From: a virus
Virus record (IMG/VR): IMGVR_UViG_3300030109_006257
Coordinates: 1-45,985 of that record
Length of the DNA stretch: 45,985 bases
Strand: one strand, 5' to 3'
Shown here: positions 20,609 through 42,445 of the stretch, in pieces
Layout of the letters: every line of letters starts with the position of its first letter
Numbering within the stretch: position 1 is the stretch's first letter
Notes under the pieces: generated by a model
Seen by the model: only the letters and a program-made list of their open reading frames with translations
Told to the model about the DNA's origin: nothing
Databases searched by the model: none
Made by a program: the position numbers and the translations under genes

Positions 20609-20610
20609 AT

Positions 20611-23909: not shown

Positions 23910-23911
23910 TT

Positions 23912-24607
23912 TTAAACCTTTATAAAGTAAGCTATACCGACCTCATCTGAGTACGATATATATTCCCAGCTATAATCCTGTTCTTTTTCTTTTATTACTT
24001 GAGGAGTTCCGTACTGATCTCCTTGGAAGTTTGCATCATGCAGTGCTACTATTCCCCCTTTACGAACGAGGGGAGAATAATTTTCCAAATCTTTTTTCAC
24101 ATACTCATAGGTGTGATTTCCGTCTATAAATACACAGTCAAACGGACCAAATTTGGAGGCTTCCTCTATTACCTCTTTGGATGCTGAATCCCCACATATC
24201 AAAGTCTCTTTTTTTGAATTGATTTCATCTGCATATCTTTGTATGTGTAAGTCATCATACTCAATCGTGCAGATACTATCCATTAATAAACTAAGAACAA
24301 AATGAGTAGATGCGAAGTGCCCCAATCCTATCTGCAATATATTTTTACATTCGTTATCAACAAGAAGATTTAGGAAATGATATATTTCATCATGAACCTG
24401 CTGTATGACTTGTGGGTTGCTATTTACTATATCTACATTTGGGTCTATATACAGTTCAGAATATCCTGATTCTTGAGATAGTATTTGCCTCGCTCTAGAC
24501 TCCATAAGCATCATAGACACGTCTACTTTTGAACTTTTTGTAGGGAACGCTCCGCTATCCAACAAATTATCAAAAAAGTCATTGATATAATTTTTCTCTA
24601 TCTTCAT
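23912..24607 (-). CDS. SAM-dependent methyltransferase
   Basis: A 231-residue class I methyltransferase. The SAM loop is ILQIGLGHFAS (motif I), the acidic strand-2 end is CTIEYDD, and later blocks are FDCVFIDGNHTYEYVKKDL and GGIVALHDANF, typical of the Methyltransf_24 type. It probably methylates a sugar or its carrier in this locus. It lies between two SDR genes with spacings of 1-2 bases. Confidence 0.85.
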   Translation of the reverse strand: MKIEKNYINDFFDNLLDSGAFPTKSSKVDVSMMLMESRARQILSQESGYSELYIDPNVDIVNSNPQVIQQVHDEIYHFLNLLVDNECKNILQIGLGHFASTHFVLSLLMDSICTIEYDDLHIQRYADEINSKKETLICGDSASKEVIEEASKFGPFDCVFIDGNHTYEYVKKDLENYSPLVRKGGIVALHDANFQGDQYGTPQVIKEKEQDYSWEYISYSDEVGIAYFIKV

Positions 24608-24608
24608 T

Positions 24609-26559: not shown

Positions 26560-27308
26560 GCGTTAGTTCCTCTAATGTTCATATCTATACTATATTCTTC
26601 AAATAAGTCCATTAGTTCTGAAAAGTACTCTAGGATATTCCACTTGCCCTTTACAACGGCTGTGGCTATATGCGGAAAGACGCTTGAGTCATAATGGAAT
26701 ATTCCTCGCTTCTTCTCTGAGTCATGGTATTGCCATCCTTTTGTAATTCCTATCCTTCGGCATATCTCTGAACCTCCCGGCTCCTGTTGCATTCTACCAT
26801 TAGTAGATGGAGACTCTTTAAATATTTTTTTGAAGTCCTTAGTCCTCCACACACTAGCTTGCTGTGCAAAAAAATTACCACTGGCTGGGTCAATTACAAA
26901 TAACTTTTCGTAACTCTGGTCTCTTGAGACATCTTCTGGGCCTTTGGTAAGTTTAACAAAGCTGTAGTCCGAATTGTCCAGAGCATTTATTATATAGTTT
27001 AGTTTTTCTTTATTCACGAAATCAAAAAGAACATAGTCTTCACTTGTGTATAGAATGTACTCTTCTTGTATTTTTTCCAAGCAAGATAATAATTGATTTC
27101 TATATGTGTCATTGTCATCATAAAGAAGTTTTATAAAAGAGTCTGGAATTATCCCGACAGTATGGTTTTGCTCTTCAAACTCATCATCAACACATACATA
27201 CTTTGTTAAATCATTAGAGGGAAAAAATGTGTCTAGCCTTCCGAAATATGGTGCCCAGACATCAGAGTATCTCGAATTAGTATCTACCAGCAAAGCTAAT
27301 GAGCTCAT
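26556..27308 (-). CDS. Possible GT-A-like glycosyltransferase or sugar-related protein
   Basis: A 250-residue protein whose central block EEYILYTSEDYVLFDFV resembles the acidic donor site of some GT-A enzymes, and whose C-terminal block GRMQQEPGGSEICRRIG recurs in glycosyltransferases of phage sugar loci. No DxD motif is certain. The function rests mainly on position between a DegT-like gene and a GT-B gene. Confidence 0.45.
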   Translation of the reverse strand: MSSLALLVDTNSRYSDVWAPYFGRLDTFFPSNDLTKYVCVDDEFEEQNHTVGIIPDSFIKLLYDDNDTYRNQLLSCLEKIQEEYILYTSEDYVLFDFVNKEKLNYIINALDNSDYSFVKLTKGPEDVSRDQSYEKLFVIDPASGNFFAQQASVWRTKDFKKIFKESPSTNGRMQQEPGGSEICRRIGITKGWQYHDSEKKRGIFHYDSSVFPHIATAVVKGKWNILEYFSELMDLFEEYSIDMNIRGTNA

Positions 27309-27910
27309 TGAAATATCCTAAACTCAGTAAGGTCTCTGTACGGTGGATTCTCTATTTGATCTTCTGCATTCTGAGGATAATCACTTAGAAGAATTAGACC
27401 TCGTGCGGCCTGTTCTGGGGTCATATACATATTCCATCCTTGCTCGGCTATAACATCTTCATGATAGCAAATATTCTCTGCTCTACCTTCGTACCTCATT
27501 CTTTTTATATGCTCAACAGCTTCTTTGCTGTCAGTAAGTATCATTCCTCCTTTGCCTATTTTCAAAGGTTTTTTATGATGAAAAGACAGACACATTAAAG
27601 AACCGGGAATATACATATTAGAAGTCAATCTTTTTGCTGAGTCATATATTGGAAAGGGTTTAATCTGATAGATGCCTTTCCAGTCAACATCTGCAAACTT
27701 CAACTTACCTCCAGCCTGCATAATAGACTGCGGCACAGATAGATATGTTCTCTTTGGGATTGTTACGGACTGTCCTTTTACGTTAAAGTGCTTACAGGCC
27801 AAAAAGATTGCATTGGTACAGCTATTCGTTGCAACCGCGTATGGTGCTCCCGTATAGTGCGCTATCTCTTCCTCAAACCATTTCACAATTTCAAAGGGGT
27901 TCCTAAGCAT
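27305..27910 (-). CDS. DegT-family aminotransferase, short form (lysine kept)
   Basis: I start it at ATG 27910 (MLRNPFEIVKWFEEEIAHYT), which matches the usual DegT N-terminus; a start at 27958 would overlap the previous gene by 56 bases. The 201-residue protein has the SCTNAIFLACKHF block, and the PLP Lys region CLSFHHKKPLKIGKGGM with Lys kept. It ends at about half the normal length (usual about 370), so much of the small domain is missing. It may be a reduced enzyme or a degraded copy. It overlaps the GNAT gene, suggesting amino-sugar formation then acylation. Confidence 0.65.
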   Translation of the reverse strand: MLRNPFEIVKWFEEEIAHYTGAPYAVATNSCTNAIFLACKHFNVKGQSVTIPKRTYLSVPQSIMQAGGKLKFADVDWKGIYQIKPFPIYDSAKRLTSNMYIPGSLMCLSFHHKKPLKIGKGGMILTDSKEAVEHIKRMRYEGRAENICYHEDVIAEQGWNMYMTPEQAARGLILLSDYPQNAEDQIENPPYRDLTEFRIFQ

Positions 27911-28292
27911 CTTCTCTTTCCAATAGATAGTATTTCTTCTTAAATCCGCAAGACTCAAAAAGCCTTATGCTTGCCTCATTATCTAATTTTACTTTAGCAA
28001 ATGAGTTTGGTCTAAATCCCATAAGCTCATTTATCATAAATTTAGCTATGCCTTTTTTCTGATGGTCTGAATGTGTTGCCACTCTTATATCTTTATTTAT
28101 TTCACCAACCCATCCTACAGGCTCTCCATCTTCTAGTGCTATGTAGTAGTCTTGGCAGTGGCTCTCCATATATTTGTAGTGGTCTTTTACCTGTATAGTC
28201 TCTTGTTCTATGAAACCTTCTCGCAAAGAATTTCTAAGCTCAAGAACAAAGTCCCAATACTTTTTTTCGCATCTTACTAGCTCTAACCCCAT
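27903..28292 (-). CDS. GNAT-family acetyltransferase
   Basis: A 129-residue GNAT protein, starting at ATG 28292 after AGGAAG. The acetyl-CoA site block is THSDHQKKGIAKFMINELMG, with the later FAKVKLDNEASIRLFESCGF. It resembles sugar N-acetyltransferases of the RimJ/PseH type. Next to the DegT-type aminotransferase it would acetylate an amino sugar. It overlaps its neighbours by 8 and 10 bases. Confidence 0.8.
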   Translation of the reverse strand: MGLELVRCEKKYWDFVLELRNSLREGFIEQETIQVKDHYKYMESHCQDYYIALEDGEPVGWVGEINKDIRVATHSDHQKKGIAKFMINELMGFRPNSFAKVKLDNEASIRLFESCGFKKKYYLLEREDA

Positions 28293-29092
28293 GAGTCTTC
28301 CTGTCTTATAATAGGATTGTTTTCTCCATCCCAATAACATCTTAAATAAACTCTAGTGCCTCGCCATCCTTGCAAACCAAGAAACGGAGAAAGAGAGGAG
28401 CCTATGTCTATATACTGGTTGTTATCAAATTCTTTGTATAACTCATAAATTAAAAAGTTACTAAGTGTAGCCGCAGAGAATAAGAAAATATGATCTGTAA
28501 TATTATTACTAGACACATAGTCTTTCATTTCTTCTATAAGGCTATAGTCATTGACCATGCAATTAGAACCAATCCTGAAGTCTTTTTTTACTTCAAACGG
28601 CAAACCTTCAAGTGTTGCGTTTTCATTGCATACTAATATTATACTCTTGTTTTTAAACTCTGGAACCATTGCATTTATAAAAAGTTCATAATTGCCATTT
28701 ATCATCACATTAGAGAAACTAAGATGTTCATGATCTTCGTCTCCATATAAATTTATACAGAAATCAAAAGCCCCTCTTCCCCATTCATTTGTTCCGGGAA
28801 TACCTTTAAAGTAATTATTCTTTTGAAATTTAAAAGCTTCTACTAGTTTCTCATGATAAAGGCTGTGCTTATTAGGATCGAATTCCTTCCTTTCCTCTTC
28901 CATATATGGAATTGGAGCCTTGACAGGAGTAGCGCCATAAACATCTTCTTGGATAAAATAATTTTCTGCTAGGACTAGGTGCTTATTTTTTAATACAGAT
29001 ACCTCGCCGTCTGAGAATCTAGCAAAAGCAAAAGGTTCTTCTGACTGAACCATCATAAGTAACTCAAAAAATTCTTCTTTAAAATTTTTCAT
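28283..29092 (-). CDS. GT-D-like glycosyltransferase (RFSDGE motif)
   Basis: A 269-residue protein with FAFARFSDGEVSVLKN near the N-terminus, the acidic motif of GT-D-fold (DUF1792-type) glycosyltransferases. A later block, HIFLFSAATLSNFLIYEL, fits the core strand-helix. It likely transfers a sugar within this cluster; the donor is unknown. It overlaps the GNAT gene by 10 bases. Confidence 0.6.
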   Translation of the reverse strand: MKNFKEEFFELLMMVQSEEPFAFARFSDGEVSVLKNKHLVLAENYFIQEDVYGATPVKAPIPYMEEERKEFDPNKHSLYHEKLVEAFKFQKNNYFKGIPGTNEWGRGAFDFCINLYGDEDHEHLSFSNVMINGNYELFINAMVPEFKNKSIILVCNENATLEGLPFEVKKDFRIGSNCMVNDYSLIEEMKDYVSSNNITDHIFLFSAATLSNFLIYELYKEFDNNQYIDIGSSLSPFLGLQGWRGTRVYLRCYWDGENNPIIRQEDSWG

Positions 29093-29095
29093 AGA

Positions 29096-29986
29096 CTAAA
29101 ACCACCTATATAGACCACTTTCATGTTTTGGAGTCCAGCCAAGACCTCTTAACTTCTTAGATGAGACTGCATACCTTACATCCTGACCCCATCTGTTTGC
29201 GACAAACTGGATAGAACTTTCATCTTTACCCAGCCAAGATATAATTGTTTTGACAACATCCAAATTTACCATGTAATTTTCTGAAGCAATGTTAAATGTT
29301 TCGTTTTTTATTCCGCTTTCAATTATAGCCATTATTCCAGAGACATTGTCTTTTACATATGTCCAGTCTCTGACATATGATCCATCTCCGTGAACAGGTA
29401 TCTTCTTATCTTGCATAAGAGAGCTGATACATTTAGGTATGAGTTTTTCTTCATACTGTCTTGGGCCGTAGTTGTTACTACTTCTAGTTATAATATAATC
29501 AATACCATACGTTCTTGAATACGCCTTGACTAGCATTTCAGCACCGGCTTTAGTAGCTGAATATGGATTGCTTGGCGAAAGAGCATCTTCCTCTAAGAAT
29601 AACCCCTCTTCTCTATCTCCATAGACTTCATCTGTACTAATATGAAAGAAAAGAGGTCTTTCATATGCGGGCTTTCCCCTAACAAGCTCTAGCAAGTTCC
29701 AGACCCCAACTAGACTACTATCTACGAAAGGTTTAGAGTCCCTTATAGAGTTATCCACATGGCTTTCTGCAGCAAAGTTGACGATCATATCGCAAGTTGG
29801 GATATGAATCAATGTACTTATGTCTGCTATTTGTAGCTTATAATTTGGATCTTTATCAGCAGGAAGAAGTTCGTAAGAAGCATAGCCCATCTTATCAATA
29901 TCATAGACACTATGTCCTAATGAGAGAGCTTCGTCTACGAAGTGACTACCTATAAAACCTCTACCGCCGGTTACTACAAACTTCAT
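29096..29986 (-). CDS. rmlB: dTDP-glucose 4,6-dehydratase-like SDR
   Basis: A 296-residue SDR with GGRGFIGSHFVDEA as NAD site, the RmlB-specific blocks HISTDEVYGDREEG and PYSATKAGAEMLVKAY (catalytic Tyr-Lys), and ITRSSNNYGPRQYEEKLIPK. RmlB dehydrates dTDP-glucose to the 4-keto-6-deoxy form, the entry to many deoxy sugars. At 296 residues it is shorter than the usual 350. No RmlA or RmlD is recognised. A 4-keto product could feed the RmlC-like and DegT-type enzymes. Confidence 0.88.
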   Translation of the reverse strand: MKFVVTGGRGFIGSHFVDEALSLGHSVYDIDKMGYASYELLPADKDPNYKLQIADISTLIHIPTCDMIVNFAAESHVDNSIRDSKPFVDSSLVGVWNLLELVRGKPAYERPLFFHISTDEVYGDREEGLFLEEDALSPSNPYSATKAGAEMLVKAYSRTYGIDYIITRSSNNYGPRQYEEKLIPKCISSLMQDKKIPVHGDGSYVRDWTYVKDNVSGIMAIIESGIKNETFNIASENYMVNLDVVKTIISWLGKDESSIQFVANRWGQDVRYAVSSKKLRGLGWTPKHESGLYRWF

Positions 29987-30977
29987 CTTTTAGAATCTCC
30001 AATATCTGCTGGGAGGCAGTTCCATTTCCATATGGACACTCCTCATCAATAATAAATTGATTACTATTAATTATACCATCAAATATAGGCTTTAGCATGT
30101 TAGGGTATCCACACATATAGGCGAAAGTTCCTACCCCTTCTGCTCTCTCGCTTACTTTTCTACAGACTATCACCTTCTTTTTAAGAAAGGCTGCTTCTTC
30201 TTGGATTCCTCCGCTATCTGTTATAATAGTTTTGCAAGTTCTTATATGTTCTAGACAATCTTTATATGACAAAGGGTCTACAACCTTGACATCTTTAAGT
30301 TGAAATCTGTATCTGAAAACATTTGGATTTGGATGCAAAGGTAAGATGAATTCAAGATTTGTATTTTCTACAGCCAGATCATTTATAGCTCTAAACCATT
30401 GCTGAATATTGTGGTGGTTCTCTCTTCTGTGCATCGTTACTAGAACCTTATTCTCTACTGCTGGAGATAGTCCTACCAAGTTGTCCAATACAGTATTTCC
30501 TGTAACAAATATTTTACTATCAGAGCCGATCATTGCCTCAATGTTTTCTTTCGCAGTTTTAGTTGGGCATAAATGTATGGACGCCAATGATGATAGCGCT
30601 GTCCTGTTGAACTCTTCTGGATATGGATTTTGCCTATCAAATGTTCTAAGTCCAGCTTCCAAGTGTATCACAGGTATATTCCTATGGAATGCTGCTAATC
30701 CAACCGCAAATGCCGAGGTAGTATCTCCATGAACCATAACATGAGATATACCTTCAAACAAATTATTTTTGTTCAATAACGAACAGACTATTGAGTCAAG
30801 CCTGTTATCTCCATTTGAGATATTGTTAACTACAAAAGTATCTTCTAGATACTCTTCAACTAAAGACGAGTGTTGTCCTGTGAAAAGTATCCTGTAAGGG
30901 ACATTGCCCTCTATAGCATCTAAAACGGGCTTTATCTTAATCCATTCAGGTCTAGTGCCAAAGGATATTAGTAACAT
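29961..30977 (-). CDS. wecB: UDP-GlcNAc 2-epimerase (WecB-like)
   Basis: A 338-residue protein of the non-hydrolysing UDP-GlcNAc 2-epimerase family. Landmarks are FGTRPEWIKIKPVLDA at the N-terminus, HGDTTSAFAVGLAAF, VIHLEAGLRTF, NPYPEEFNR and the C-terminal ITDSGGIQEEAAFL. It interconverts UDP-GlcNAc and UDP-ManNAc, a start for N-acetylated sugars. The start overlaps the sulfotransferase gene by 10 bases and its stop overlaps RmlB by 26 bases. Confidence 0.9.
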   Translation of the reverse strand: MLLISFGTRPEWIKIKPVLDAIEGNVPYRILFTGQHSSLVEEYLEDTFVVNNISNGDNRLDSIVCSLLNKNNLFEGISHVMVHGDTTSAFAVGLAAFHRNIPVIHLEAGLRTFDRQNPYPEEFNRTALSSLASIHLCPTKTAKENIEAMIGSDSKIFVTGNTVLDNLVGLSPAVENKVLVTMHRRENHHNIQQWFRAINDLAVENTNLEFILPLHPNPNVFRYRFQLKDVKVVDPLSYKDCLEHIRTCKTIITDSGGIQEEAAFLKKKVIVCRKVSERAEGVGTFAYMCGYPNMLKPIFDGIINSNQFIIDEECPYGNGTASQQILEILKDEVCSNRR

Positions 30978-31864
30978 GCTGGCTCCAATTTATAAGATAA
31001 CTTTTTTATTAATGTTTTATTTAAAAGACCGGAGATAGCTTCTATCTCATGGCGATTAAGGTCATTTAAAAATTCTTTATTTAGATAATAATTTTTTCTT
31101 GACTTAGGAAAGCCATCACTACTTTCCGCTCTAAGAGAATAATTGTTTACATATTCTACGATAGGCGTGTACTTCTCGTATGCTTGAAGATCAAAGAAAT
31201 CAACTATCTTATTGAACCACAGTTCAGACTTTCTAGTAAAATCTTCATATCTTACTATAAAAACATTTTTATTTTTGTAACCAGTGTACTTGCCGTAGAA
31301 GTCATTCCAGAGCGATATAGCTTCGGTTATTTTTGGGCTTATCTTGTTTGTTCTAATCGTACTCTTAGTATTACAAAAGTCCCTGAAACTAGTGAACCAA
31401 GAATATGGATTCCGAACAACTAAAATAATATTGGCATCTTCTTCTAAGTATAGATTATGTTTAGTACTCTGAAGGATTGTGTCCCTCATTGTATTATACT
31501 CTAGGCTTTTAAAAATAAATCCAGTTCCTGATCTTTCCAGCCCCTTAATTATTATTTGCTTTGGAGCCCTTGCCATAAATGGCTTAAGCATATTGAAGAC
31601 ATCTGATAATAAAAATCTTACAGCAGGTGAGCCGAATGCAGACTTTTTCTTTCTTGCATCAATGAGAAAATCTGAGAGTTCTTTTGCTCTATCTCGATTG
31701 CTCTGACTAGCTCTGAAGAATTCTTTTCGATAATCCTCATTTTTTTTACAGTAGCCCCACAGCTCTTCGCTCATATCTCTAAGGAAGATGTTGCAAAATC
31801 CCGCATGTTCGCATTGACAATTATTAAAGTCATCTTCTAACAAACTTCCATCCCCTATCAACAT
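30968..31864 (-). CDS. Sulfotransferase-family protein
   Basis: I start it at ATG 31864 to limit overlap with the preceding glycosyltransferase (35 bases rather than 125); no strong ribosome site marks it. The 298-residue protein has the 5'-phosphosulfate loop (IIIKGLERSGTGFI), then ILVVRNPYSWFTSFRDF and VRYEDFTRKSELWFNKIVDF. It would transfer sulfate from PAPS to a sugar or lipid. The N-terminus has a Cys-rich segment (NCQCEHAGFCNIFLRDM), which is unusual for the family and may bind metal. Sulfated phage glycans are not common. Confidence 0.75.
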   Translation of the reverse strand: MLIGDGSLLEDDFNNCQCEHAGFCNIFLRDMSEELWGYCKKNEDYRKEFFRASQSNRDRAKELSDFLIDARKKKSAFGSPAVRFLLSDVFNMLKPFMARAPKQIIIKGLERSGTGFIFKSLEYNTMRDTILQSTKHNLYLEEDANIILVVRNPYSWFTSFRDFCNTKSTIRTNKISPKITEAISLWNDFYGKYTGYKNKNVFIVRYEDFTRKSELWFNKIVDFFDLQAYEKYTPIVEYVNNYSLRAESSDGFPKSRKNYYLNKEFLNDLNRHEIEAISGLLNKTLIKKLSYKLEPACY

Positions 31865-32552
31865 AATGCTGTATACACTTATCTCTAAGTGAAAAGAAGT
31901 TCTGTTGGCTAGTAACGGATTCTGTTTTGTCGTCAACTCCAAGCTCGTAGCCATATAGAGAGCTTGATTTTTCTCTATCTAATGGAGGGTGAGGAGGAAC
32001 AACAGTTGGAACTGCGCCATATAATTGAGCCATAGCTGATAAGTGAATATCTTCTCCTGTCTCCCAAGTATATGGCTCTTCTTCCCAGATATATTTTAAA
32101 TGTGTCTTATTTATAAACCAAGCGTGTCCTACTAAATCTACTTCAGTTGTCTCCTCATTATGCGATGGCCAGCCAAATCTTTCATGATCCATATAATACT
32201 CTTTGCTATTAAGCTGCAGTCCGACCCCTCCTATGATTGCTTTTTTCTGACTATAAGTTTCAAGGCAATTCTCAAACCATTTATTTCCGGGAATTGTGTC
32301 ATCGTCAAAAAGCGCTACAAATTCCGTCTGTGCAAGCATAGCTAAAGAGAATCGCCCAAAATATTTCCAGTTGTAGTCATTCTTTACTATCCTATCAACG
32401 TCGTAAGAGAAAGATTCCTTATAAAAGTCTTCATGATGATTGACCCATAGCCATATTTGTTCTGGTTTAATTGTTTGATTTTTTATAGCCTCTATTTGCA
32501 AAGGCAGATTTTTTGGTCTTCTGTAGCCATTAAGTATGACAGTTATAGACAT
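31830..32552 (-). CDS. GT-A family 2-like glycosyltransferase
   Basis: A 240-residue GT-A protein, starting at ATG 32552 after GGGAGAG; a TTG 15 bases earlier is less likely. Its N-terminus is SITVILNGYRRPKNLPLQIE, the acceptor strand is EQIWLWVNH, and the metal/donor motif is EFVALFDDDTIPG. It has the layout of family 2 transferases. The donor is unknown. The start overlaps the preceding stop as TAATG. Confidence 0.8.
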   Translation of the reverse strand: MSITVILNGYRRPKNLPLQIEAIKNQTIKPEQIWLWVNHHEDFYKESFSYDVDRIVKNDYNWKYFGRFSLAMLAQTEFVALFDDDTIPGNKWFENCLETYSQKKAIIGGVGLQLNSKEYYMDHERFGWPSHNEETTEVDLVGHAWFINKTHLKYIWEEEPYTWETGEDIHLSAMAQLYGAVPTVVPPHPPLDREKSSSLYGYELGVDDKTESVTSQQNFFSLRDKCIQHYVDRGWKFVRR

Positions 32553-33388
32553 TAAACACTCTCCCAAAATAACTCAGGTGCCATAGCACATTCCGAAACC
32601 ATCTGATCTCTTCCTACTTCATTCATGTGATGCAAACATCCTATTATATCGTTCCCTATAACTTCCATGCCACAGCATATAGCTTCCGCTACCGATCTAC
32701 AATAAGGCTCATAAAAGGCAGGTTTATAAAATAGAGTATTATAAGAATTATATAGTTTTGGCATCTCTTCAAATTCGACTGCTCCTATAAACTCTATATT
32801 TGGTATCATACTGCAATTCTGTATAAAATGCTGTTGATCTGACCATCCAGCGACTATAAATTCTTTTTCTGGGTTCTCTATAGCATACGAGAAAAGTTCA
32901 TTAGTACCTTTTAGCTGGTGCATATATCCAACATAAAGTATTTTGTCTTCTCTTTTTTCTTTTCTGTCGTAGAAATGATTGCAGTCTATTGGGTCTGGAA
33001 TTATCTTTGTATTTACAAAGTAATTACCATAAGATTCTTCGAATTGCTTGAGATGGAATGAAGATAGAAAGAAAGCTTTTTTGCAACTTGTGAACAGTCT
33101 TTTCCTAGACTCTTGATTCAAATATCTATTGGAGTCATGTTCAATCCTAACATGATTTCTGTGAGAACTTATCCACTCTATTATGTTGGGCTTTCTATTT
33201 ATAGCATCTAGATTAGAAGAGACAAGTAAATCGTAATTAGGATGGAGCAGCGATTCATTGCTATCGAAGAAAAACTCTACTATGTCGTGTCCTATCTCTC
33301 TTCCTTTTTCTATAATTAGATTATTACTTCTTTGTGCTCCGCCTTTATTGTGGTGCAGCCCAAAATCAGAGATCCAGAGTACTTTCAT
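32552..33388 (-). CDS. GT-B glycosyltransferase (group 1 type)
   Basis: A 278-residue GT-B protein. It begins MKVLWISDFGLHHNKGGAQR, the linker is KIIPDPIDCNHF, the donor-binding helix is ILYVGYMHQLKGTNELF, and the C-terminal motif is FYEPYCRSVAEAICCGMEVI, where the Glu contacts the donor. It is shorter than average (usual about 360), with a compact N-domain. It overlaps both neighbours by single bases (TAATG). Confidence 0.85.
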   Translation of the reverse strand: MKVLWISDFGLHHNKGGAQRSNNLIIEKGREIGHDIVEFFFDSNESLLHPNYDLLVSSNLDAINRKPNIIEWISSHRNHVRIEHDSNRYLNQESRKRLFTSCKKAFFLSSFHLKQFEESYGNYFVNTKIIPDPIDCNHFYDRKEKREDKILYVGYMHQLKGTNELFSYAIENPEKEFIVAGWSDQQHFIQNCSMIPNIEFIGAVEFEEMPKLYNSYNTLFYKPAFYEPYCRSVAEAICCGMEVIGNDIIGCLHHMNEVGRDQMVSECAMAPELFWESV

Positions 33389-33762
33389 TAGTCGCCCTTC
33401 ATAACTCTTATTGAATCCGTATCAAAATGTTGTGTTGAGAATTCAAACATGATGACATCGGTTAGCCCTAACATTTGATGTCTCATTCCTACAGGGACAT
33501 GGAAAGAGTCCCCTTCTTCTAAAATTATCTTCTGAGTAAAATGAGATGTTCTTCTGTCATCCCAGCCATAAAGAACTTCCAATCTTCCTGATTGTATATA
33601 AAAAGTCTCATCTTTTAATTTATGATAATGCCAGCTACATCTTTTATTTTTTTTAAAGAATAGGATCTTACCGCAGTATTCTTCCTTGTTTACGATCCAA
33701 TGTTCATACCCCCATCCTTTTGGGACAAATTTATTGGTTTCTGTCACTTTGATCTCCACCAT
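33388..33762 (-). CDS. Cupin protein (mannose-6-phosphate isomerase type)
   Basis: A 124-residue single-domain cupin. The metal block is CSWHYHKLKDETFYI (His, His, Glu) and the second is GMRHQMLG. It resembles the cupin of type II phosphomannose isomerases and other sugar cupins. It overlaps the next gene (33744-34427) by 19 bases. The exact reaction is unknown; sugar isomerisation or binding is inferred. Confidence 0.7.
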   Translation of the reverse strand: MVEIKVTETNKFVPKGWGYEHWIVNKEEYCGKILFFKKNKRCSWHYHKLKDETFYIQSGRLEVLYGWDDRRTSHFTQKIILEEGDSFHVPVGMRHQMLGLTDVIMFEFSTQHFDTDSIRVMKGD

Positions 33763-34427
33763 CTCTTCTTAGTATTGTCTTCACTTGCTTGTTTTTTTTT
33801 TGACTGTTCTTTTGCCGACAAAGAAGCTTTTTGAATAGCTAGCTTTTGTTTTTCTTCTTTAGCTTTGATCTTGGCTCTTTCTTGCTCTTCTTTAGCTTTG
33901 GCCTTAGCTCTTTGTTGTTCTTCTTTAGCTTTATCTTTCAGCTCTTTTTCAAAGTTCTTTTGCGCTAGTATATCTTCTTTGGCAGATCTTTTTAACTTAA
34001 AGCATGTTTTCATTATTGATGCGTAGAATTTTCCTAAAAAGGCATCTCTGAAGTAGCCATCTTCTTTTTTTATAAACTTTAATTTTTTTTCTGATAACAA
34101 AAACCTAACGTCATCTTGACCTACCCCATTATCCATATCAATATACATGGCATTGAAGTTAAGTGCTGTAGAAAACCTGTTTATTGGCTTGGCGAAATAG
34201 AACTTTGCAAAACTAGCATGACACAAGATCTTGTCTGTAACTGAGAAAGCAGTTCCTTCGTAGTCAATTATTCTTGGTATTGCCGCATGGCCAGTCAAGC
34301 CCCTACATCCATAGGGCTCTTTTATTATTTTTATCTTAGCATCCTTATTATGCTTAAGAATACTATTTTTTGTTTCTAAGGCTGCCGCCTGAGATTCTTC
34401 AGTTTGTAAAATGAAAACCTTTACCAT
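33744..34427 (-). CDS. Hypothetical protein with three 11-residue coiled-coil repeats
   Basis: A 227-residue protein. The N-terminal half (VKVFILQTEESQAAALETKN) has the look of a small sugar-related or transferase domain. Residues 167-199 are three tandem 11-residue repeats (AKEEQQRAKAK, AKEEQERAKIK, AKEEKQKLAIQ), giving a charged coiled coil of hendecad period. The C-terminal tail is Lys-rich and ends KKRWWRSK, a possible membrane or nucleic-acid contact. No family is recognised. It precedes the cupin gene in the locus. Confidence 0.55.
   Translation of the reverse strand: MVKVFILQTEESQAAALETKNSILKHNKDAKIKIIKEPYGCRGLTGHAAIPRIIDYEGTAFSVTDKILCHASFAKFYFAKPINRFSTALNFNAMYIDMDNGVGQDDVRFLLSEKKLKFIKKEDGYFRDAFLGKFYASIMKTCFKLKRSAKEDILAQKNFEKELKDKAKEEQQRAKAKAKEEQERAKIKAKEEKQKLAIQKASLSAKEQSKKKQASEDNTKKRWWRSK
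33831..33929 (-). repeat. Three in-gene 33-base repeats coding AKEE-type hendecads
   Basis: The three repeat units are imperfect copies of 33 bases within the gene at 33744-34427. The repeat is visible in both DNA (CTAAAGAAGA recurs) and protein, and would allow length variation by slippage. Confidence 0.6.
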
Positions 34428-34440
34428 CTATCTACTCTCC

Positions 34441-35010
34441 TTAAGATCCGGTGTTTCCGACTACTATTATCGAAATAGCAATACCTGTATTGTAATTTTG
34501 TGCTCCACTACCACTACCAACATTTGTTATTGTCAAAGTTCTGTTATTCGCAGTAACTGGAGTTCCATAGTAAGTATCTGTGAATTGATAAACAGATCCG
34601 GGCGCTATCTTTATGCCCTCCGGACCTCCTGTTCCTCCATGCAATAAGTTTGTAAAGCCATTTGACCCTGTTGGAGCTAAAGTAACCATTTCATTAGTTC
34701 CAGTATTTTCATTCCTTATAACCAGTGATTTTATGCCAGTTAGAGAGACATTATATGATGTCCCGAAACTATATTGCTGTAATGCTTTAAGATTATATTC
34801 GTAGCTATTACCACTGCCAATTTTTCTACCAGCATCTTCGTAAACCCCATCTATCTGTCTCGTACCAGTTCCAGATGAGAGACCAATAACATAGCCAAGA
34901 GATCCATTAAAAGAAGCTACTGTATCAGTGTATTGATATGTAGTATCTTGATTGAAGTCAATATCAGACCTTACTGTTGCTGTCGTATTAACATATGTTC
35001 CAGAAGGCAT
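34441..35010 (-). CDS. Probable virion surface or fibre-associated protein
   Basis: A 189-residue protein of beta-prone polar composition (Thr, Gly, Ser, Asn, Tyr) starting MPSGTYVNTTATVRSDID. The sequence YGTPVTANNRTLTITNVGSG and similar stretches suggest a beta sandwich or fibre. There is no signal peptide. It has a -10 element upstream (35046-35054) and a ribosome site AGAAAGGG. Composition matches the 8515-9123 product. The virion role is inferred. Confidence 0.5.
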   Translation of the reverse strand: MPSGTYVNTTATVRSDIDFNQDTTYQYTDTVASFNGSLGYVIGLSSGTGTRQIDGVYEDAGRKIGSGNSYEYNLKALQQYSFGTSYNVSLTGIKSLVIRNENTGTNEMVTLAPTGSNGFTNLLHGGTGGPEGIKIAPGSVYQFTDTYYGTPVTANNRTLTITNVGSGSGAQNYNTGIAISIIVVGNTGS

Positions 35011-35045
35011 TTCAAACCCTTTCTAAATTTATAAATGTATAATAT

Positions 35046-35054
35046 ATTATACCC
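35046..35054 (-). promoter_or_regulatory. Putative -10 element GGGG-TATAAT
   Basis: GGGGTATAAT on the minus strand about 35 bases before the 35010 start, with no -35 box. Same arrangement as 8152 and 14612. It could drive the virion-like gene and, by read-through, the sugar locus. Confidence 0.45.
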
Positions 35055-35492
35055 CTATTTTCTTTTTCTTGTCTTTATCTTAACTATACGGTGAGGGGCT
35101 TGTATAATTCCCGTAGCTAATGACTTTTTTCTTTCACCCATATAAACAAAGTCAATTCCTGTATTGTTTTTACCTATCCCATAGCAGAGAAGGCCGTTTC
35201 CAACTATTTCCCTGACAATATACTTGCCTTTGCACCCCATATAGATTTTTTCTCCTGTTTCATGATCGTCTGACTCAGAAGAACATGTATAGTATGGGCC
35301 GGTACCTTGAATTATCTTTATATGCTGTCCCTGTTCTAGTTCTTTCCAGTCTTTCACCTCATTCTTAATTGGTGTATTTTTACTGATAAAAAACTTCCCG
35401 CAAGTGTTACACTTGGTGCTTCTGGCGGCATTTACAGCTCCGCAGTGCTTACAAAGTTTTTGTCCTCTTCTTAGTTTAACTTTTTTTACCAT
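35055..35492 (-). CDS. Zinc-ribbon protein (145 aa)
   Basis: A 145-residue protein with an N-terminal zinc ribbon (LCKHCGAVNAARSTKCNTCG: two CxxC pairs) and a C-terminal beta-rich domain (KYIVREIVGNGLLCYGIG) with extra Cys residues. The type is common in large marine phages and may bind nucleic acid or protein. A consensus-like promoter lies upstream (35536). The function is unknown. Confidence 0.7.
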   Translation of the reverse strand: MVKKVKLRRGQKLCKHCGAVNAARSTKCNTCGKFFISKNTPIKNEVKDWKELEQGQHIKIIQGTGPYYTCSSESDDHETGEKIYMGCKGKYIVREIVGNGLLCYGIGKNNTGIDFVYMGERKKSLATGIIQAPHRIVKIKTRKRK

Positions 35493-35535
35493 AAAAACTC
35501 CAGTGCCTTATTAAAATTCTAAACCCACATAAAAC

Positions 35536-35564
35536 ATTATACCATAGGTATCCGAAAATTGCAA
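35536..35564 (-). promoter_or_regulatory. Sigma-70-type promoter TTGCAA-17-TATAAT
   Basis: On the minus strand TTGCAA (35564-35559) and TATAAT (35541-35536) are spaced by 17 bases, near consensus. It lies between the cytidylyltransferase gene (stop 35574) and the 35492 start, so it likely starts the zinc-ribbon gene and the genes downstream of it. Confidence 0.7.
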
Positions 35565-35573
35565 GTAAAAACT

Positions 35574-36029
35574 TTAATAATTTTTTATTCTATCTATTAT
35601 TTTTGTTGTAGATATACTATGTGTATAGGGTACAAATAACATTTCAGCCCCTATCCTATCTAAAAAATCTTGACTTATACATAGCTGACTAAAGTAATCC
35701 CTCGACTGCCAATCGGTTCCCATTACAATATAGTCTGGATTATTTTCTTCAATAAAGAAAGGTTGATTCTCATATGCGTCCATAATAAATGCGTAGTCTA
35801 CATACTTACATGAGTTTACCACAGCAAGCCTTTCATACTGATCCATAACTGGAGCCCTTTTGTACGACTCTGAGAAGCTATCACTATTGACAGCTACGAT
35901 GACTTTTGATAAAGCTCCTAGTTCTAGACTTTCCTTACTCATGTGGTACTTAAGATTCTTAAACACATTCACATGTCCATAGTGAAATAAATCGAATGTG
36001 CCACCTATATATATCTTTTTAATTATCAT
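35574..36029 (-). CDS. Glycerol-3-phosphate cytidylyltransferase-like protein
   Basis: A 151-residue HxGH nucleotidyltransferase. The motif is GGTFDLFHYGHVNVF; other landmarks are MDQYERLAVVNSCKYVDY and the C-terminal SISTTKIIDRI, typical of TagD/GCT. It would make CDP-glycerol or a CDP-activated alcohol used in surface polymers. Its start overlaps the 36019-37062 gene by 11 bases. Confidence 0.8.
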   Translation of the reverse strand: MIIKKIYIGGTFDLFHYGHVNVFKNLKYHMSKESLELGALSKVIVAVNSDSFSESYKRAPVMDQYERLAVVNSCKYVDYAFIMDAYENQPFFIEENNPDYIVMGTDWQSRDYFSQLCISQDFLDRIGAEMLFVPYTHSISTTKIIDRIKNY

Positions 36030-37062
36030 ACTCTATAAATATACCTTTGGTGCCGTCATGATTACCCTTTTCTTGTCTATTGTATGCCAGTCGAATACTA
36101 TCAAACGATTGGTCTTGCAGCTCTTGATGATACGGCCTGTATGAAGCCAAGCTAAATGTATTTAACTGTCCTTGACTACACGAGTAAAAATCATTTTCTC
36201 GGCAAAAATGTGCTAACAAATTCTCTGGCATGAAGTATGGCTTCTCAGGACTAACATTTTTCATTGAGGTATTATATGATAGTATTTTTAATAACTGAGA
36301 ACGGAAGTAGTTCTCGAATTTACTGAAGACTCTACCTGAGCAAGCAAATATCTTATCCCCTATCCATGTGGATTTGTATGAATAAACGCAATCCCCAAAA
36401 ACAGTAGTCCAAGCTGTGAATAAATGCTCTCTTTTAAATCTGCTATTGTCTTTACTTCTAGCATAGTCTCTTTTTACAAGAGTGTCCATATCTTTGAATA
36501 CCTGACTTCTATACTCTTTTGTTTTTAACTCCATGAAATTATCAAATCTGAATCTAAAAACTAAGTCATATTTAAAATTATTTTCTTTTGAATACTCAGA
36601 TACGAGAGATGCTGACTTAGATATGGAATATGTTTGTGCTAAGTGAAATGGATAAGACAAAAACGGGTCTATATTACTACTCTGGACAATCTGCTTAAGC
36701 CAATCTGGCGAAGTTTTTCTAGAGGTTTTTCTGCTAAACTTAGCCCTAATGGTCTTTATAGCTTTTTTTATTTCTATATTAGATAGTTGGTCTTCTACTA
36801 ATATTTTTTTAGGCTTATAATAATATTCTAGACAATCAGTAAGTTCTTCTATAGGTACTACAATCGCGTTATCTGAGGATCTGTGCTGAGATTTAGCTCT
36901 AGCAGGATACCAGCTAGATGACCAAGAATGTATAAAAAAATCTACTTCGCATCCATACGCATCAAAGAACTCAAGGGTGTTGTGTACACACTCTGAAAAG
37001 TGGCGTGCCATACCAGAAAGCGAAACCGCAATTCTAAGTTTCTTACTCAAGTTAAAATCCAA
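36019..37062 (-). CDS. Putative glycosyltransferase-like protein
   Basis: A 347-residue protein. The start IAVSLSGMARHFSECVHN and VDFFIHSW match a family of phage and bacterial glycan-locus proteins, and the mid-block YDLVFRFRFDNFMEL fits a GT-A type fold. No catalytic motif is certain. It overlaps the cytidylyltransferase gene and the small gene upstream. Confidence 0.55.
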   Translation of the reverse strand: MDFNLSKKLRIAVSLSGMARHFSECVHNTLEFFDAYGCEVDFFIHSWSSSWYPARAKSQHRSSDNAIVVPIEELTDCLEYYYKPKKILVEDQLSNIEIKKAIKTIRAKFSRKTSRKTSPDWLKQIVQSSNIDPFLSYPFHLAQTYSISKSASLVSEYSKENNFKYDLVFRFRFDNFMELKTKEYRSQVFKDMDTLVKRDYARSKDNSRFKREHLFTAWTTVFGDCVYSYKSTWIGDKIFACSGRVFSKFENYFRSQLLKILSYNTSMKNVSPEKPYFMPENLLAHFCRENDFYSCSQGQLNTFSLASYRPYHQELQDQSFDSIRLAYNRQEKGNHDGTKGIFIEYDN

Positions 37063-37511: not shown

Positions 37512-37759
37512 TTTTCTATCTCTGATTTTAGCTCTTTAAGCATTGGTCTAACGACCGCCTCAACCTCATCTTCAAACTCATTAGACATAGCTTGAAGAAA
37601 CATCTCAATTCTCATAGCATTATCGCTACTTAACATAGCGTTGTATTCCATGAAACGCTCTAATCCTTTGACTGTCTTATTTAATTTGTAATTACTATAT
37701 CCTAAGCATCCTATTCCTACCGCTAGTGTAACCAAGCAGAGTATGTTTAGCTTATTCAT
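37484..37759 (-). CDS. Single-span membrane protein (91 aa)
   Basis: I start it at ATG 37759 (MNKLNILCLVTLAVGIGCLG); a TTG 9 bases upstream is an alternative. One N-terminal membrane span is followed by a helical acidic tail (KGLERFMEYNAMLSSDNAMR). The ATG overlaps the dipeptidase stop. The function is unknown. Confidence 0.55.
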   Translation of the reverse strand: MNKLNILCLVTLAVGIGCLGYSNYKLNKTVKGLERFMEYNAMLSSDNAMRIEMFLQAMSNEFEDEVEAVVRPMLKELKSEIEKCSTPTEQN

Positions 37760-38982
37760 TTTTTCCAACCATTTCGGATTAGTCTTAAAGAATTGTCTCC
37801 AAGAAATTTTCGTATAGTATGATCATCCCATCCAACCGCCTTGAGGTGAGATGTGATTCTGGGCAACTGACCCATGTGTACAATTTCATCTGGAGGATCA
37901 GTGAAGCCATCAAAGTCTGTCCCTATAGCTGGCACATCTGATCCCGCTACATTTATAATATGGTCTATTGTCTGTTCTATATATTTTAATCCAAGCTGAG
38001 TGTCTACAGGAGAGATCCAATAGTTCATAAAGATTATTCCAGCAACTCCTCCATGATTGCCAAGCCACTTTAGTTCCCAGTCTTGTAAGTTATAAGTTAG
38101 CCTATTTACTTCAAAGGCTCCAACATGACTCGCAAAGATACACTCTTCAGCATGGTGATGTTCGGCAATTTCGTAAATTCTCTTTCTGGCTTTCAGGGTA
38201 CAGTGAGATATATCTAACAGCATCCCTAGCTCAAACATCTTTTCGACAACTGCTTCTCCAATATCCGTTAGACTTTTGTCTTCATCCCATTTACTGAGTA
38301 GACTTTCCCAACTTCCGTGACTGAGGGCGTATTCAGGCCACGGGAATACTGGCGGAGCGCAATCGTTCTCATAGAAGTGAGCTAGGGTTAGATATGCAAC
38401 GCCCTTATTATAAAAATGTTCTAGGTTAGACAGTGCTGTATTTAATTTTTCTTCATGAGTAACATCGACATCATGTGGTTTTGGTTGTGCTGAGTCTGCT
38501 TGTAGGGAGTGCGCCCCTTCGACTGAGTGAATCAATGCCAAGCTCCCATCGTCAAGCGCATTATCTAAATCGAAAACAGACTTACAAACAGCAATCTTTC
38601 TATTGTTTTGATTCTTATTCCATTCAGTTACCTGAGATTCCATTTCATCTAGGACATTCATAGTAGCATCAAAATAAGATGCCTCATATATTTCTTTACG
38701 AACATTAGGAGCAAGTTTAATTAACCACTTAGCGAGAGACATATCCTCATACCATCCTCCTTCAGGAATGAAGGCCGTTGATAACATAACATCAAGGCCA
38801 CCCTCCATCAGTCTAGGGAAGGTTGTTCTGTTTGCTAAAGGCCAGAATTTCCTTTTGAAAAGACCCATCAAGAACTTTTCTTTAGACGAACCCATATTGC
38901 GATGAAAGATTGATGCCTTTATTGCAGAGTGGCAGTGTAAGTCCACAACAGTTGAGTCAAAGTGAAGTTCCTTAGATGCCAT
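37756..38982 (-). CDS. Peptidase M19 (membrane dipeptidase) homologue
   Basis: A 408-residue protein of the renal-dipeptidase family, starting at 38982 after AGAGGA. Zinc and catalytic blocks are VVDLHCHSAI, ALIHSVEGAHSL, YLTLAHFYEN, MLLDISHCTLKAR and IFASHVGAF. GTDFDGFTDPP and the C-terminal FLGDNSLRLI follow. Family enzymes cleave dipeptides, including D-amino-acid and cell-wall-derived ones. I know of few phage examples. It may salvage amino acids or alter wall peptides. No signal peptide is visible, so it is likely cytoplasmic. Confidence 0.92.
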   Translation of the reverse strand: MASKELHFDSTVVDLHCHSAIKASIFHRNMGSSKEKFLMGLFKRKFWPLANRTTFPRLMEGGLDVMLSTAFIPEGGWYEDMSLAKWLIKLAPNVRKEIYEASYFDATMNVLDEMESQVTEWNKNQNNRKIAVCKSVFDLDNALDDGSLALIHSVEGAHSLQADSAQPKPHDVDVTHEEKLNTALSNLEHFYNKGVAYLTLAHFYENDCAPPVFPWPEYALSHGSWESLLSKWDEDKSLTDIGEAVVEKMFELGMLLDISHCTLKARKRIYEIAEHHHAEECIFASHVGAFEVNRLTYNLQDWELKWLGNHGGVAGIIFMNYWISPVDTQLGLKYIEQTIDHIINVAGSDVPAIGTDFDGFTDPPDEIVHMGQLPRITSHLKAVGWDDHTIRKFLGDNSLRLIRNGWKK

Positions 38983-38992
38983 GTTTATTCCT

Positions 38993-39103
38993 CTAATATA
39001 CAAGTTTGGAAATTGCCAGCGTTAGCCATAAAGCAATCGCTATTGGAGCCATAAATATTATAGCCGTTACAATACATTTATTAAATTTGTCTGAGTTATC
39101 CAT
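38993..39103 (-). CDS. Small single-span membrane peptide (36 aa)
   Basis: A 36-codon frame whose ATG lies within the end of the RuvB gene (8-base overlap). The product MDNSDKFNKCIVTAIIFMAP continues hydrophobic (IAIALWLTLAISKLVY). One membrane span is predicted. The function is unknown. Confidence 0.5.
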   Translation of the reverse strand: MDNSDKFNKCIVTAIIFMAPIAIALWLTLAISKLVY

Positions 39104-40022
39104 TTTTAGTCAGTATTCTACCTTTGGATGTTTTAGCTATGTATCCTTGACGTATTAAAAACGGTTCGATTTTTTGCTCTATTGTTTGCTTGTCAATGTT
39201 AAGCGCACTACATAGTGTACTTACACCGATAGCGGTTCCTTTAGGCAACTTATCAAACACCTTTAGGTAGTCTCTGTCCACTGGATTAAGTCCGTCCTCA
39301 TCAATACCCTGCATTTTTAGAGCTTGGGTGACATCTGAATTTTGCAAACCCCCTATATTGTGGGCTATCTTGTAATCTCTTACCCATTCAAGAAAGTTGT
39401 TGGCTATTCTAGGCGTTCCTCTACTAGCTTTAGCTATAGTCCTTACAGCATCTGATGAAATTTCAACATCTAGCTTGTCAGCGTTAATAGACACTAATTG
39501 GGATAGGTCTGAGACTTCGTATGGCCTCATAAAATGCTTGAGTTTGAACCTATCTAAGAAAGGCTGTACTAGATCGCCCATCTCTGTAGTGGCTCCTACC
39601 AGAGTAAATCTAGGTATGTCTATATTGATCGTTTCGCCCTTACCGTTCTTAGTAGCTGGTATAACAATGTCCAATCTAAAGTCCTCAATAACTGTCAACA
39701 TATACTCCTGAACCTTTCGATTCATCCGATGTATCTCATCTATAAATAGAATGGAACCTGTCTTCATCTTCATTAAATAAGGTAGAATGTCCTTATTGTT
39801 AGATATTGATGAGCCGTTGGCTATTTCTATACTGACATCAAGTTCATTAGCTAAAGCTCTCGCGAGAGTTGTCTTGCCTAGACCTGCACCTCCATAAAAA
39901 AGGCAATGCTGTAGAACTCCAGATCTAGCCCTTACAGAAGCTATGGAAATCTTTAGATTGTTGATTATATCCTTTTGACCTATTAGGTCATCTATTTTAC
40001 TCGGTCTTAGATTGTTCGACAT
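39096..40022 (-). CDS. ruvB: RuvB-type Holliday-junction helicase
   Basis: A 308-residue RuvB. Walker A is FYGGAGLGKTT (44-51), Walker B is ILFIDEIHRM (D95-E96), and the sensor/arginine-finger region is GATTEMGDLVQPFLDRF. The C-terminal winged helix is visible (NPVDRDYLKVFDKLPKGTAIG). RuvB drives branch migration with RuvA in bacteria. No RuvA or RuvC is seen; instead the overlapping gene 39997-40350 has a RuvA-domain-III-like tail. It may process replication or recombination intermediates with ssb. Confidence 0.93.
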   Translation of the reverse strand: MSNNLRPSKIDDLIGQKDIINNLKISIASVRARSGVLQHCLFYGGAGLGKTTLARALANELDVSIEIANGSSISNNKDILPYLMKMKTGSILFIDEIHRMNRKVQEYMLTVIEDFRLDIVIPATKNGKGETINIDIPRFTLVGATTEMGDLVQPFLDRFKLKHFMRPYEVSDLSQLVSINADKLDVEISSDAVRTIAKASRGTPRIANNFLEWVRDYKIAHNIGGLQNSDVTQALKMQGIDEDGLNPVDRDYLKVFDKLPKGTAIGVSTLCSALNIDKQTIEQKIEPFLIRQGYIAKTSKGRILTKNG

Positions 40023-40350
40023 TTTTTAGGCATCCTTCTATTAGATCGGCAACTAGCATATCGTCTTGATAAGTCTTTTCGATAAGTGCCGTGACTTCAG
40101 AATTTGAGAAACCCAAACCACGCATAGCAGCACGGGCTTTCTCAACTGTGTTGTTTATTGGTTTCTTCGTACTTTTCTTTTTAGTAAAATTAAAGAGAGG
40201 AGGAATAGTTATATTATCACTACATTCAGGGCATACAAGATTCATGGGTTTGGATTGCGGAATCTTCTTGTTGCTCAACCGAAAGTGCAGGTAGCAATTA
40301 GGACATCTGTAATCGACATCAATATTGACTCTAGCAATTTTAGCTTTCAT
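39997..40350 (-). CDS. Zinc-ribbon protein with RuvA domain III-like C-terminus (candidate RuvB partner)
   Basis: A 117-residue protein, start at ATG 40350 after GAGG. Residues 14-43 form a zinc ribbon (RCPNC and VCPEC). Residues 69-112 (VEKARAAMRGLGFSNSEVTA then LIEKTYQDDMLVADLIEGCL) resemble the three-helix RuvA domain III that binds RuvB, with the LGF-x-x-x-EV core. It overlaps ruvB by 26 bases, so the two are coupled. RuvA's OB-fold and helix-hairpin-helix parts are absent; the zinc ribbon may replace the DNA-binding part. The resemblance is by eye and needs a profile search. Confidence 0.55.
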   Translation of the reverse strand: MKAKIARVNIDVDYRCPNCYLHFRLSNKKIPQSKPMNLVCPECSDNITIPPLFNFTKKKSTKKPINNTVEKARAAMRGLGFSNSEVTALIEKTYQDDMLVADLIEGCLKNVEQSKTE

Positions 40351-40454
40351 AACCATCCTCTATCTCTCTTTCTGATTGACATACGTTGAGTATGACAAAC
40401 GCTTCTTACCATGTATCCATTTCTAGTCAGAGAAGCAACTGCTAGATAAGGCAT
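40347..40454 (-). CDS. Possible small basic peptide (35 aa)
   Basis: A 35-codon frame right after tRNA-Arg. It starts MPYLAVASLTRNGYMVRSVC and its stop overlaps the next ATG as ATGA. The basic C-terminus (SIRKRDRGWL) is of no known family. The weak ribosome site keeps confidence low. Confidence 0.3.
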   Translation of the reverse strand: MPYLAVASLTRNGYMVRSVCHTQRMSIRKRDRGWL

Positions 40455-40550: not shown

Positions 40551-40579
40551 ATTATAATATACTATCGTCAGAAAGTCAA
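40551..40579 (-). promoter_or_regulatory. Sigma-70-type promoter TTGACT-17-TATAAT
   Basis: TTGACT (40579-40574) and TATAAT (40556-40551) on the minus strand spaced by 17 bases, just upstream of tRNA-Arg (5' end 40539). This is near-consensus and likely starts the tRNA, the RuvA-like gene and ruvB. Confidence 0.8.
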
Positions 40580-40851
40580 GAAGAATTTAATCTTTTATTC
40601 CATTTTCTTCTTGCTTCTACCCAATCATCAGCAGAGCCACTTGCTCCACCACAATCATCACACTCATACCAATACAAACCTATACTCTCCATAGCCTCTG
40701 CTTGTGGATGACCTCCACAGAATGGACATGGTAACATTGTATCGTTTGTAAACTCAACAACGTCTATATCATGCTTACCGCACTTAATGCACCATATAGG
40801 CTTATTGTCTGTATCGACTATACGATTGCAACATTTGATTAAATATTTCAA
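40576..40851 (-). CDS. Lar-like zinc-ribbon protein (restriction alleviation family)
   Basis: A 91-residue protein starting at TTG 40851. The second half is a Lar-type zinc ribbon: LPCPFCGGHPQAEAM, then YWYECDDCGGASG and WVEARRKWNKR. The N-terminal half has a second Cys pair (IWCIKCG). Lar proteins alter type I restriction activity in Enterobacteria; in most phages the function is unproven. The call is a family resemblance, not a tested activity. Confidence 0.65.
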   Translation of the reverse strand: MKYLIKCCNRIVDTDNKPIWCIKCGKHDIDVVEFTNDTMLPCPFCGGHPQAEAMESIGLYWYECDDCGGASGSADDWVEARRKWNKRLNSS

Positions 40852-41691: not shown

Positions 41692-41719
41692 ATTATACCA
41701 TATGATTAGAATTTGTCAA
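41692..41719 (-). promoter_or_regulatory. Sigma-70-type promoter TTGACA-16-TATAAT
   Basis: TTGACA (41719-41714) and TATAAT (41697-41692) on the minus strand spaced by 16 bases, overlapping the 3' end of the phosphomannomutase gene. It should start the run of small genes at 41688-40856. Confidence 0.8.
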
Positions 41720-42424
41720 GTGGAAATTAAAATACTTATTGAGTATATTGTATGTGTCTTCTGGACTTTCCACGCAGTAGGACTTATTAGACATTCTAGA
41801 TATTTCATAGTCTCCTCCACCCTTACCGCACCTATCTCCAAAGAATATACTTTTTTCTTTCATATCATGTAAGACCTGAGACTTGTCTTTACCTTTTGGG
41901 TATATGTCGATACTAATGTCTCCACCTATTGAGAACTCTAAGTCACGATACATATAAGAAAGTTTACTAACTATTGACTCTCTTTCTTTATTCTCTTTGT
42001 CCCATTCATAGTATTGTTTTCTAAGCTCTGTACTTGCTCTTCTACCAACTGTTGATATATTAACCATACCAACTCTCTCTTCTATATTGTTTGAGCTTTT
42101 GCCATACCAGACACTATCTCTGATTAGATCAATTATATCTAAGTGTAGGTTCGCATCCATCATCCAATTTGATTGCTTAATTAAATTGCCAGATACATAT
42201 AGTTGATTTCCGCAACTTTGATAGCTACCATCTATTTTAAGCCAGAGATTTTCTCCTACTTGTTGTATAGTTTTATCTTTATCAGACCCAGTAACAAAGA
42301 AAACTTTATTACCTACGCTCTGCTGAAATAAAACCCACTTATAAAAGAACCACAGGAAACCTTCGTCCATTGGTCTTCTTGATGGAGTTAATGTTCCATC
42401 GACATCAAACAAAAAGTTAATCAT
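41693..42424 (-). CDS. Phosphomannomutase of the eukaryotic PMM2 (HAD) type
   Basis: A 243-residue HAD protein starting at 42424 after AGGAG. The nucleophile motif is FDVDGTLTPSR (Asp7, Asp9). Then EERVGMVNISTVGRRAS, WDKENKERESIVSKL, FSIGGDISIDIYPKGKDKSQ and IFFGDRCGKGGGDYEI follow in the exact order of eukaryotic PMM2. It would convert mannose-6-phosphate to mannose-1-phosphate for GDP-mannose. The bacterial counterpart is usually the unrelated ManB family, so this type in a phage is notable. The sequence ends at a length close to PMM2. Confidence 0.85.
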   Translation of the reverse strand: MINFLFDVDGTLTPSRRPMDEGFLWFFYKWVLFQQSVGNKVFFVTGSDKDKTIQQVGENLWLKIDGSYQSCGNQLYVSGNLIKQSNWMMDANLHLDIIDLIRDSVWYGKSSNNIEERVGMVNISTVGRRASTELRKQYYEWDKENKERESIVSKLSYMYRDLEFSIGGDISIDIYPKGKDKSQVLHDMKEKSIFFGDRCGKGGGDYEISRMSNKSYCVESPEDTYNILNKYFNFHLTNSNHMV

Positions 42425-42445
42425 AAAAGTAGCTCCTGCCAATAG

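Follow-up and report, generated by a model that had tools for sequence, protein, structure and literature searches.

RuvAB is the textbook branch-migration machine, in which junction recognition by RuvA and the regulation of RuvB are hard to separate. The locus described here raises the question of what a RuvB motor works with when the gene beside it is not that of a complete RuvA. It lies on the minus strand of a viral fragment of 45,985 bases (IMG/VR record IMGVR_UViG_3300030109_006257), referred to below as the window, and consists of a gene for a RuvB-like AAA+ motor and a small gene directly upstream of it. The product of the small gene appears to be a variant RuvB partner, in which RuvA domain III is joined to a zinc ribbon and which is present in a large group of uncultivated phages; we call it the adaptor. 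The first-pass annotation of this DNA stated that such an arrangement had not been seen described, and we likewise found no earlier description of such a partner in the literature searched.

The adaptor and its zinc ribbon

The features of the locus are listed below; adaptor residues are numbered in the 119-aa version of the protein, which adds 2 to the numbers of the first-pass annotation.

39997..40356, minus strand: zinc ribbon-RuvA domain III adaptor gene, an ORF of 119 aa (37 non-redundant homologues; AF2 pLDDT 84.5)
40198..40320, minus strand: zinc ribbon, residues 13-53 (Cys 18, 21, 42 and 45 invariant in 37 homologues; AF2; Foldseek match to ZitP 2nb9)
40153..40197, minus strand: basic linker, residues 54-68 (low pLDDT at 60-64; length in the family 8-67 aa)
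40006..40152, minus strand: RuvA domain III-like three-helix tail, residues 69-117 (profiles, AF2, Foldseek, hhalign)
39997..40022, minus strand: overlap of the adaptor gene and ruvB, 26 nt, +1 frame (ORF coordinates)
40033-40037, minus strand: AAGGA ribosome-binding site for ruvB, within the adaptor gene (sequence inspection)
39096..40022, minus strand: phage RuvB, 308 aa, AAA+ motor with lid and winged-helix domains (Pfam, alignment, AF2, Foldseek)
39618..39677, minus strand: presensor-1 hairpin of RuvB, 2 aa longer than the bacterial one (AF2 strands 116-121 and 130-135; alignment; role in PMC9477746)

The overlap of the two genes is exactly the 26 bases first reported. Two in-frame ATGs open the adaptor ORF, at 40356 (119 aa) and 40350 (117 aa); the second, which has GAGG 6 nt upstream and agrees with the start sites in relatives, is perhaps the true one.

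Used as a single-sequence query, the window adaptor retrieved nothing useful from viral contigs or cultured phages, and alignments were required. Alignment-based scans yielded a first set of six relatives, each with both the ribbon and the tail and each encoded next to a RuvB, and then 37 non-redundant sequences (<90% identity). The window protein carries two CxxC pairs (C18/C21/C42/C45) and matches Zn_ribbon_4 at E=3.8e-4, below the Pfam cut-off. In the AF2 model, built from the 37 sequences, a four-strand ribbon is followed by a loose linker and three helices, and the two CxxC knuckles set in a beta-ribbon that characterize the MJ0042-type Zn_ribbon_4 are present, their four cysteines being invariant across the family. 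The N-terminal zinc ribbon read from the sequence by the first-pass annotation is thereby borne out. Its nearest fold is the zinc finger of ZitP (2nb9; Foldseek probability 0.95, 1.4 Å). The ZitP and AgmX ribbons (Zn_ribbon_4/5) share this fold and the CxxC-CxxC pattern; to our knowledge, they are found on membrane or motility proteins and are not joined to a RuvA domain III. Most of the adaptor ribbons are basic, with a median net charge of +5, while 3 of the 37 are acidic overall, and the linker of the window protein is Lys-rich.

The adaptor resembles bacterial RuvA in its C-terminal domain III, in the linker that precedes it and in the position of its gene directly upstream of ruvB. However, it is shorter (113-171 aa, against ~200 aa) and has a C4 zinc ribbon in place of domains I and II: it contains neither the OB fold of domain I (RuvA_N) with its acidic pin nor the HhH of domain II, and profile comparison found no similarity between the ribbon and RuvA domains I and II. 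For this reason, we do not class it as a RuvA. The earlier proposal, a rebuilt RuvA in which a ribbon replaces the junction-binding domains, is supported in its components (the domain III tail, the ribbon and the lack of RuvA_N); that the ribbon also takes over junction binding in function is a conjecture.

Domain III-like tail and RuvB-type motor

The helices of the tail are modelled at residues 69-80, 85-95 and 102-117, and M78, L81, G82 and F83 align with L167, L170, G171 and Y172 of E. coli RuvA. Since the RuvA_C match of the window protein is weak (E=0.055 for the whole protein and E=0.009 for the tail alone, below the Pfam cut-off), a single sequence would not settle the identity of the tail, whereas the family does. 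RuvA_C is matched by five of the first six homologues (best E=9.7e-5). A profile of these six, compared with the PDB, has RuvA domain III chains as its best natural matches (E=4e-5); designed dTor repeat proteins, the top match overall, were rejected as non-homologous, this match being summed from many sub-threshold repeats. With the 37-sequence profile, the first match is 1ixs_A (E=2.5e-5), a RuvA domain III co-crystallized with RuvB. Aligned by hhalign with ten bacterial RuvA domains III, the phage tails score 43.2, whereas the reversed profile gives 10.1 and none of 30 column shuffles exceeds 10.8. The modelled tail superposes on the RuvA domain III of RuvAB-Holliday junction complexes with a Foldseek probability of 1.00 (7pbm_H, 0.8 Å over 44 columns; 7pbl_G, 1.0 Å over 46 columns), its E-value being only 0.12 because the domain is small (~45 residues), and RuvA domain III ranks first for the adaptor model among the best 50 of 83 matches. 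The L167-equivalent is L, M, I or V in all 37 homologues, and the L170-equivalent is hydrophobic or aromatic in 35 of them.

Homology of the tail to RuvA domain III is, therefore, well supported by sequence profiles and by the model, as the first-pass annotation had suggested for a three-helix segment, and no other helical family matches it better by sequence profile, profile-profile comparison or fold. A generic UBA-like bundle is hardly credible as an alternative: both folds are small and three-helical, and the matches of the window tail to the ubiquitin-binding WIYLD and MCP signalling models are about as weak as its match to RuvA_C, but no UBA family stands above RuvA domain III at the family level, the UBA control EF-Ts does not match the tail, and the domain III score is lost on shuffling or reversal.

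The motor passes the Pfam cut-offs for all three RuvB domains (P-loop, E=1.5e-48; lid, E=2.4e-17; winged helix, E=5.2e-22). Its Walker A (K50/T51), Walker B (D95/E96) and arginine finger (R158 here, R174 in the criteria applied for RuvB) residues are invariant in 80 phage RuvBs. The AF2 model, built from 41 phage sequences (pLDDT 92.9), contains the presensor-1 hairpin (strands 116-121 and 130-135), the tip of which varies among the aligned phage RuvBs, and the C-terminal DNA-contacting hairpin. The top 47 Foldseek matches are all RuvB, including 1ixs_B, solved with RuvA domain III. That the protein could be a divergent clamp loader can practically be dismissed: clamp loaders are its best matches in the PHROG library, but its fold is not nearer to T4 gp44/RFC than to RuvB (Foldseek 3e-14 vs 1e-35, ~21 orders of magnitude apart), and all the RuvB domains are recognized. 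The phages checked argue in the same direction, since a family search with the large ORFs of two whole contigs found that each encodes a phrog_405 DNA polymerase together with a DnaB-type helicase, one of them also having a primase; judged by sequence, this set suits phages with their own replication machinery.

Phage and bacterial RuvBs thus share the P-loop, lid, winged helix, Walker motifs, arginine finger, presensor-1 hairpin and C-terminal DNA hairpin. In the fold search, the phage protein is mostly 34-39% identical to solved RuvBs; it lacks the N-terminal ~20 aa, and its hairpin is 2 aa longer in the window clade and 4 aa shorter in the larger one. We take I148 and I150 of RuvB to be contacts for RuvA. 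The I150-equivalent is I or V in all phage RuvBs; the I148-equivalent is Ile in the window and Glu in most of the larger clade, where the hairpin tip is also shortened, so the contacts with domain III must differ there.

Gene pairing, losses and recombination genes

Among 80 phage RuvB ORFs, the window included, the adaptor is encoded directly upstream of 61 and absent from 18, while one contig is cut just before ruvB, giving 61 of 79. A scan with the ribbon family, in which the pattern lay in the ribbon and not in RuvB, detected 185 viral relatives, all in uncultivated viral contigs; 80 of these were kept, plus one bacterial-MAG contig, and RuvB lies immediately downstream in 80 of the 80 adaptor loci with room for it. 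Many of the loci behind these counts are near copies, the first set holding 37 adaptors below 90% identity. Seen from the adaptor side, the pairing is obligate, and it is conserved across very divergent phages. No zinc ribbon-domain III adaptor was found in the cultured phages searched. At each of 38 distinct junctions, the two genes either overlap or are separated by no more than 7 nt, and 33 of the 38 have a Shine-Dalgarno-like site for ruvB within the adaptor gene or at its end, a geometry that suggests translational coupling.

A tree of 60 RuvBs separates the phage clade from ten bacterial sequences with support 100/100. Loci with the adaptor are found on either side of the deepest split among the phages, and the well-supported branches require its absence to have changed at least five times; assuming a root between bacterial and phage RuvBs, this suggests that the adaptor was repeatedly lost or displaced and that its absence is not the ancestral state. 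The ~18 loci without an adaptor, among them contigs of 154 and 157 kb, imply that the need for it is not strict. They retain the presensor-1 hairpin, and their RuvB can be self-sufficient or borrow the RuvA of the host. The lack of a Pfam RuvA_C match at these loci is a weak test, as this model misses several true members; the A5 profile performs better.

At ~18 loci (L038, L079, L039, L056, L034 and L022 among them), with no adaptor in the contig, RuvB directly follows a conserved gene ending in ..NDFVFW.., whose product looks winged-helix-like by eye and which lies downstream of rIIA/rIIB-like genes. The contig of L019, whose RuvB also has no zinc-ribbon adaptor, encodes a 148-aa protein (L098:1498-1944, minus strand) in which an N-terminal hydrophobic segment is combined with a C-terminal RuvA_C domain that scores above the cut-off (29.5 bits). 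From its sequence, this protein may be a membrane-anchored domain III. It adjoins rIIB-like and DUF1501-like genes.

RuvA_N was detected neither in the window nor in any of 29 related contigs, which measure up to 157 kb, in line with the first-pass annotation, which saw no RuvA; the same search was positive in 10 of 14 control genomes. As none of the contigs searched is rated complete, the absence of RuvA from the full genomes is likely rather than certain. RuvC was not found in 15 contigs, six of which encode T4 endonuclease VII-type resolvases, and UvsX-like recombinases are present in nine of 11 contigs. In a survey of jumbo phages, RuvC was reported without a RuvB-like ATPase (PMC7824862). 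T4-type branch migration by UvsW with endonuclease VII would represent the same pathway step as the system described here, in which a RuvB motor would take the place of UvsW. Searches for UvsW, which gave no match, and for Gp23 had no positive control and are not counted as evidence of absence.

The RuvB matches inspected in the phage collection proved to be ordinary bacterial-type ruvB genes, used as an outgroup only. A full RuvA adjoins in nine of the ten loci inspected, the exception (L111) being at a prophage end. The ordinary bacterial-type ruvA-ruvB pairs of MT835478, OR846600, OR844993 and other entries labelled as phage are probably contaminating bacterial DNA.

Possible roles of the adaptor and neighbouring genes

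In bacteria, domain III contacts RuvB at its presensor-1 hairpin and at helix alpha3, and serves as nucleotide exchange factor, ATPase activator and fulcrum (PMC9477746), and the substitutions L167A and L170A in this domain of E. coli RuvA abolish RuvB activity (PMC2628435). We favour, with a probability of roughly 0.65, a phage-specific RuvB adaptor whose domain III docks on and regulates RuvB while its ribbon targets the motor. Most likely, by analogy with bacterial RuvAB, the tail would dock on phage RuvB subunits at the same two elements, the presensor-1 hairpin and alpha3, and, once docked, would pace the nucleotide cycle of RuvB. The flexible linker and ribbon would stand in for the tetrameric junction-binding core of RuvA, and the ribbon would most likely tether the motor to branched or recombining phage DNA, directly or via a phage recombination protein. 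We infer, in this scheme, the contact between domain III and RuvB, the stimulation of the RuvB ATPase, the ligand of the ribbon and branch migration itself.

The strongest competitor shares the docking of domain III but has the ribbon bind a protein (a recombinase, resolvase, replisome component or polymerase), which would then recruit the motor. Considering that the ribbon of ZitP binds the protein PopZ (PMC5182065), a protein ligand is favoured by precedent, and it would also accommodate the few acidic ribbons and the fact that a RuvA tetramer cannot be built from a 55-aa ribbon. On the other hand, the basic charge of most ribbons and the Lys-rich linker of the window protein favour nucleic acid, and we consider recruitment by a protein a serious prospect at somewhat less than even odds.

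It is improbable, by contrast, that RuvB and adaptor form a DNA translocase whose task is not on Holliday junctions but, for example, in late transcription, fork reversal or packaging. The sigma factor and rIIB genes near the pair in several loci, as well as the lack of a detected RuvC, would fit such a role, but the motor resembles RuvB both in its fold and in its DNA-contacting C-terminal hairpin, and UvsX-like and endonuclease VII genes are present. Very unlikely is a decoy that poisons host RuvAB, since the adaptor, although it carries the portion of RuvA that binds RuvB and could in this way engage the RuvB of the host, never occurs without a neighbouring phage RuvB where there is room for one, and the gene geometry points to translational coupling.

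Under the favoured adaptor reading, evolution seems to have split the roles of RuvA: these phages retained domain III, the regulatory part, and exchanged the core that recognizes junctions, which suggests that they re-targeted a universal DNA recombination motor. The pair makes it testable whether domain III alone is sufficient to pace the RuvB ring, and how an AAA+ motor is re-targeted. More tentatively, and we think this rather unlikely, phage RuvB could be a portable DNA motor that accepts different targeting heads, in which the domain III plug is joined to a ribbon at most loci and to a membrane anchor at one locus or more (L098:1498-1944), with no need for a junction-recognition core.

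Several other genes lie around the pair. Directly behind ruvB, the window encodes an M19 membrane dipeptidase-like protein (37756-39003, minus strand, E=4.8e-52), and a homologue likewise follows ruvB in L002, L003, L009 and L010. Two genes upstream of ruvB is a gene for a Lar-like restriction alleviation protein (PF14354, E=7e-10; 40576-40851, minus strand), separated from the adaptor gene by a tRNA-Arg gene. A eukaryotic-type phosphomannomutase (PF03332, E=1.8e-31; 41693-42442, minus strand) is matched by phrog_29277, a PHROG of function unknown. A long surface-sugar cluster at ~17000-36100 (minus strand) includes a GHMP kinase, a DegT aminotransferase, an epimerase, a glycosyltransferase, a sulfotransferase and a cytidylyltransferase. 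Finally, the window encodes a DUF1501 protein (2279-3535, minus strand, E=4.1e-70), and this gene, together with the DUF1501-like gene beside the anchored domain III in L098, may hint at host range.
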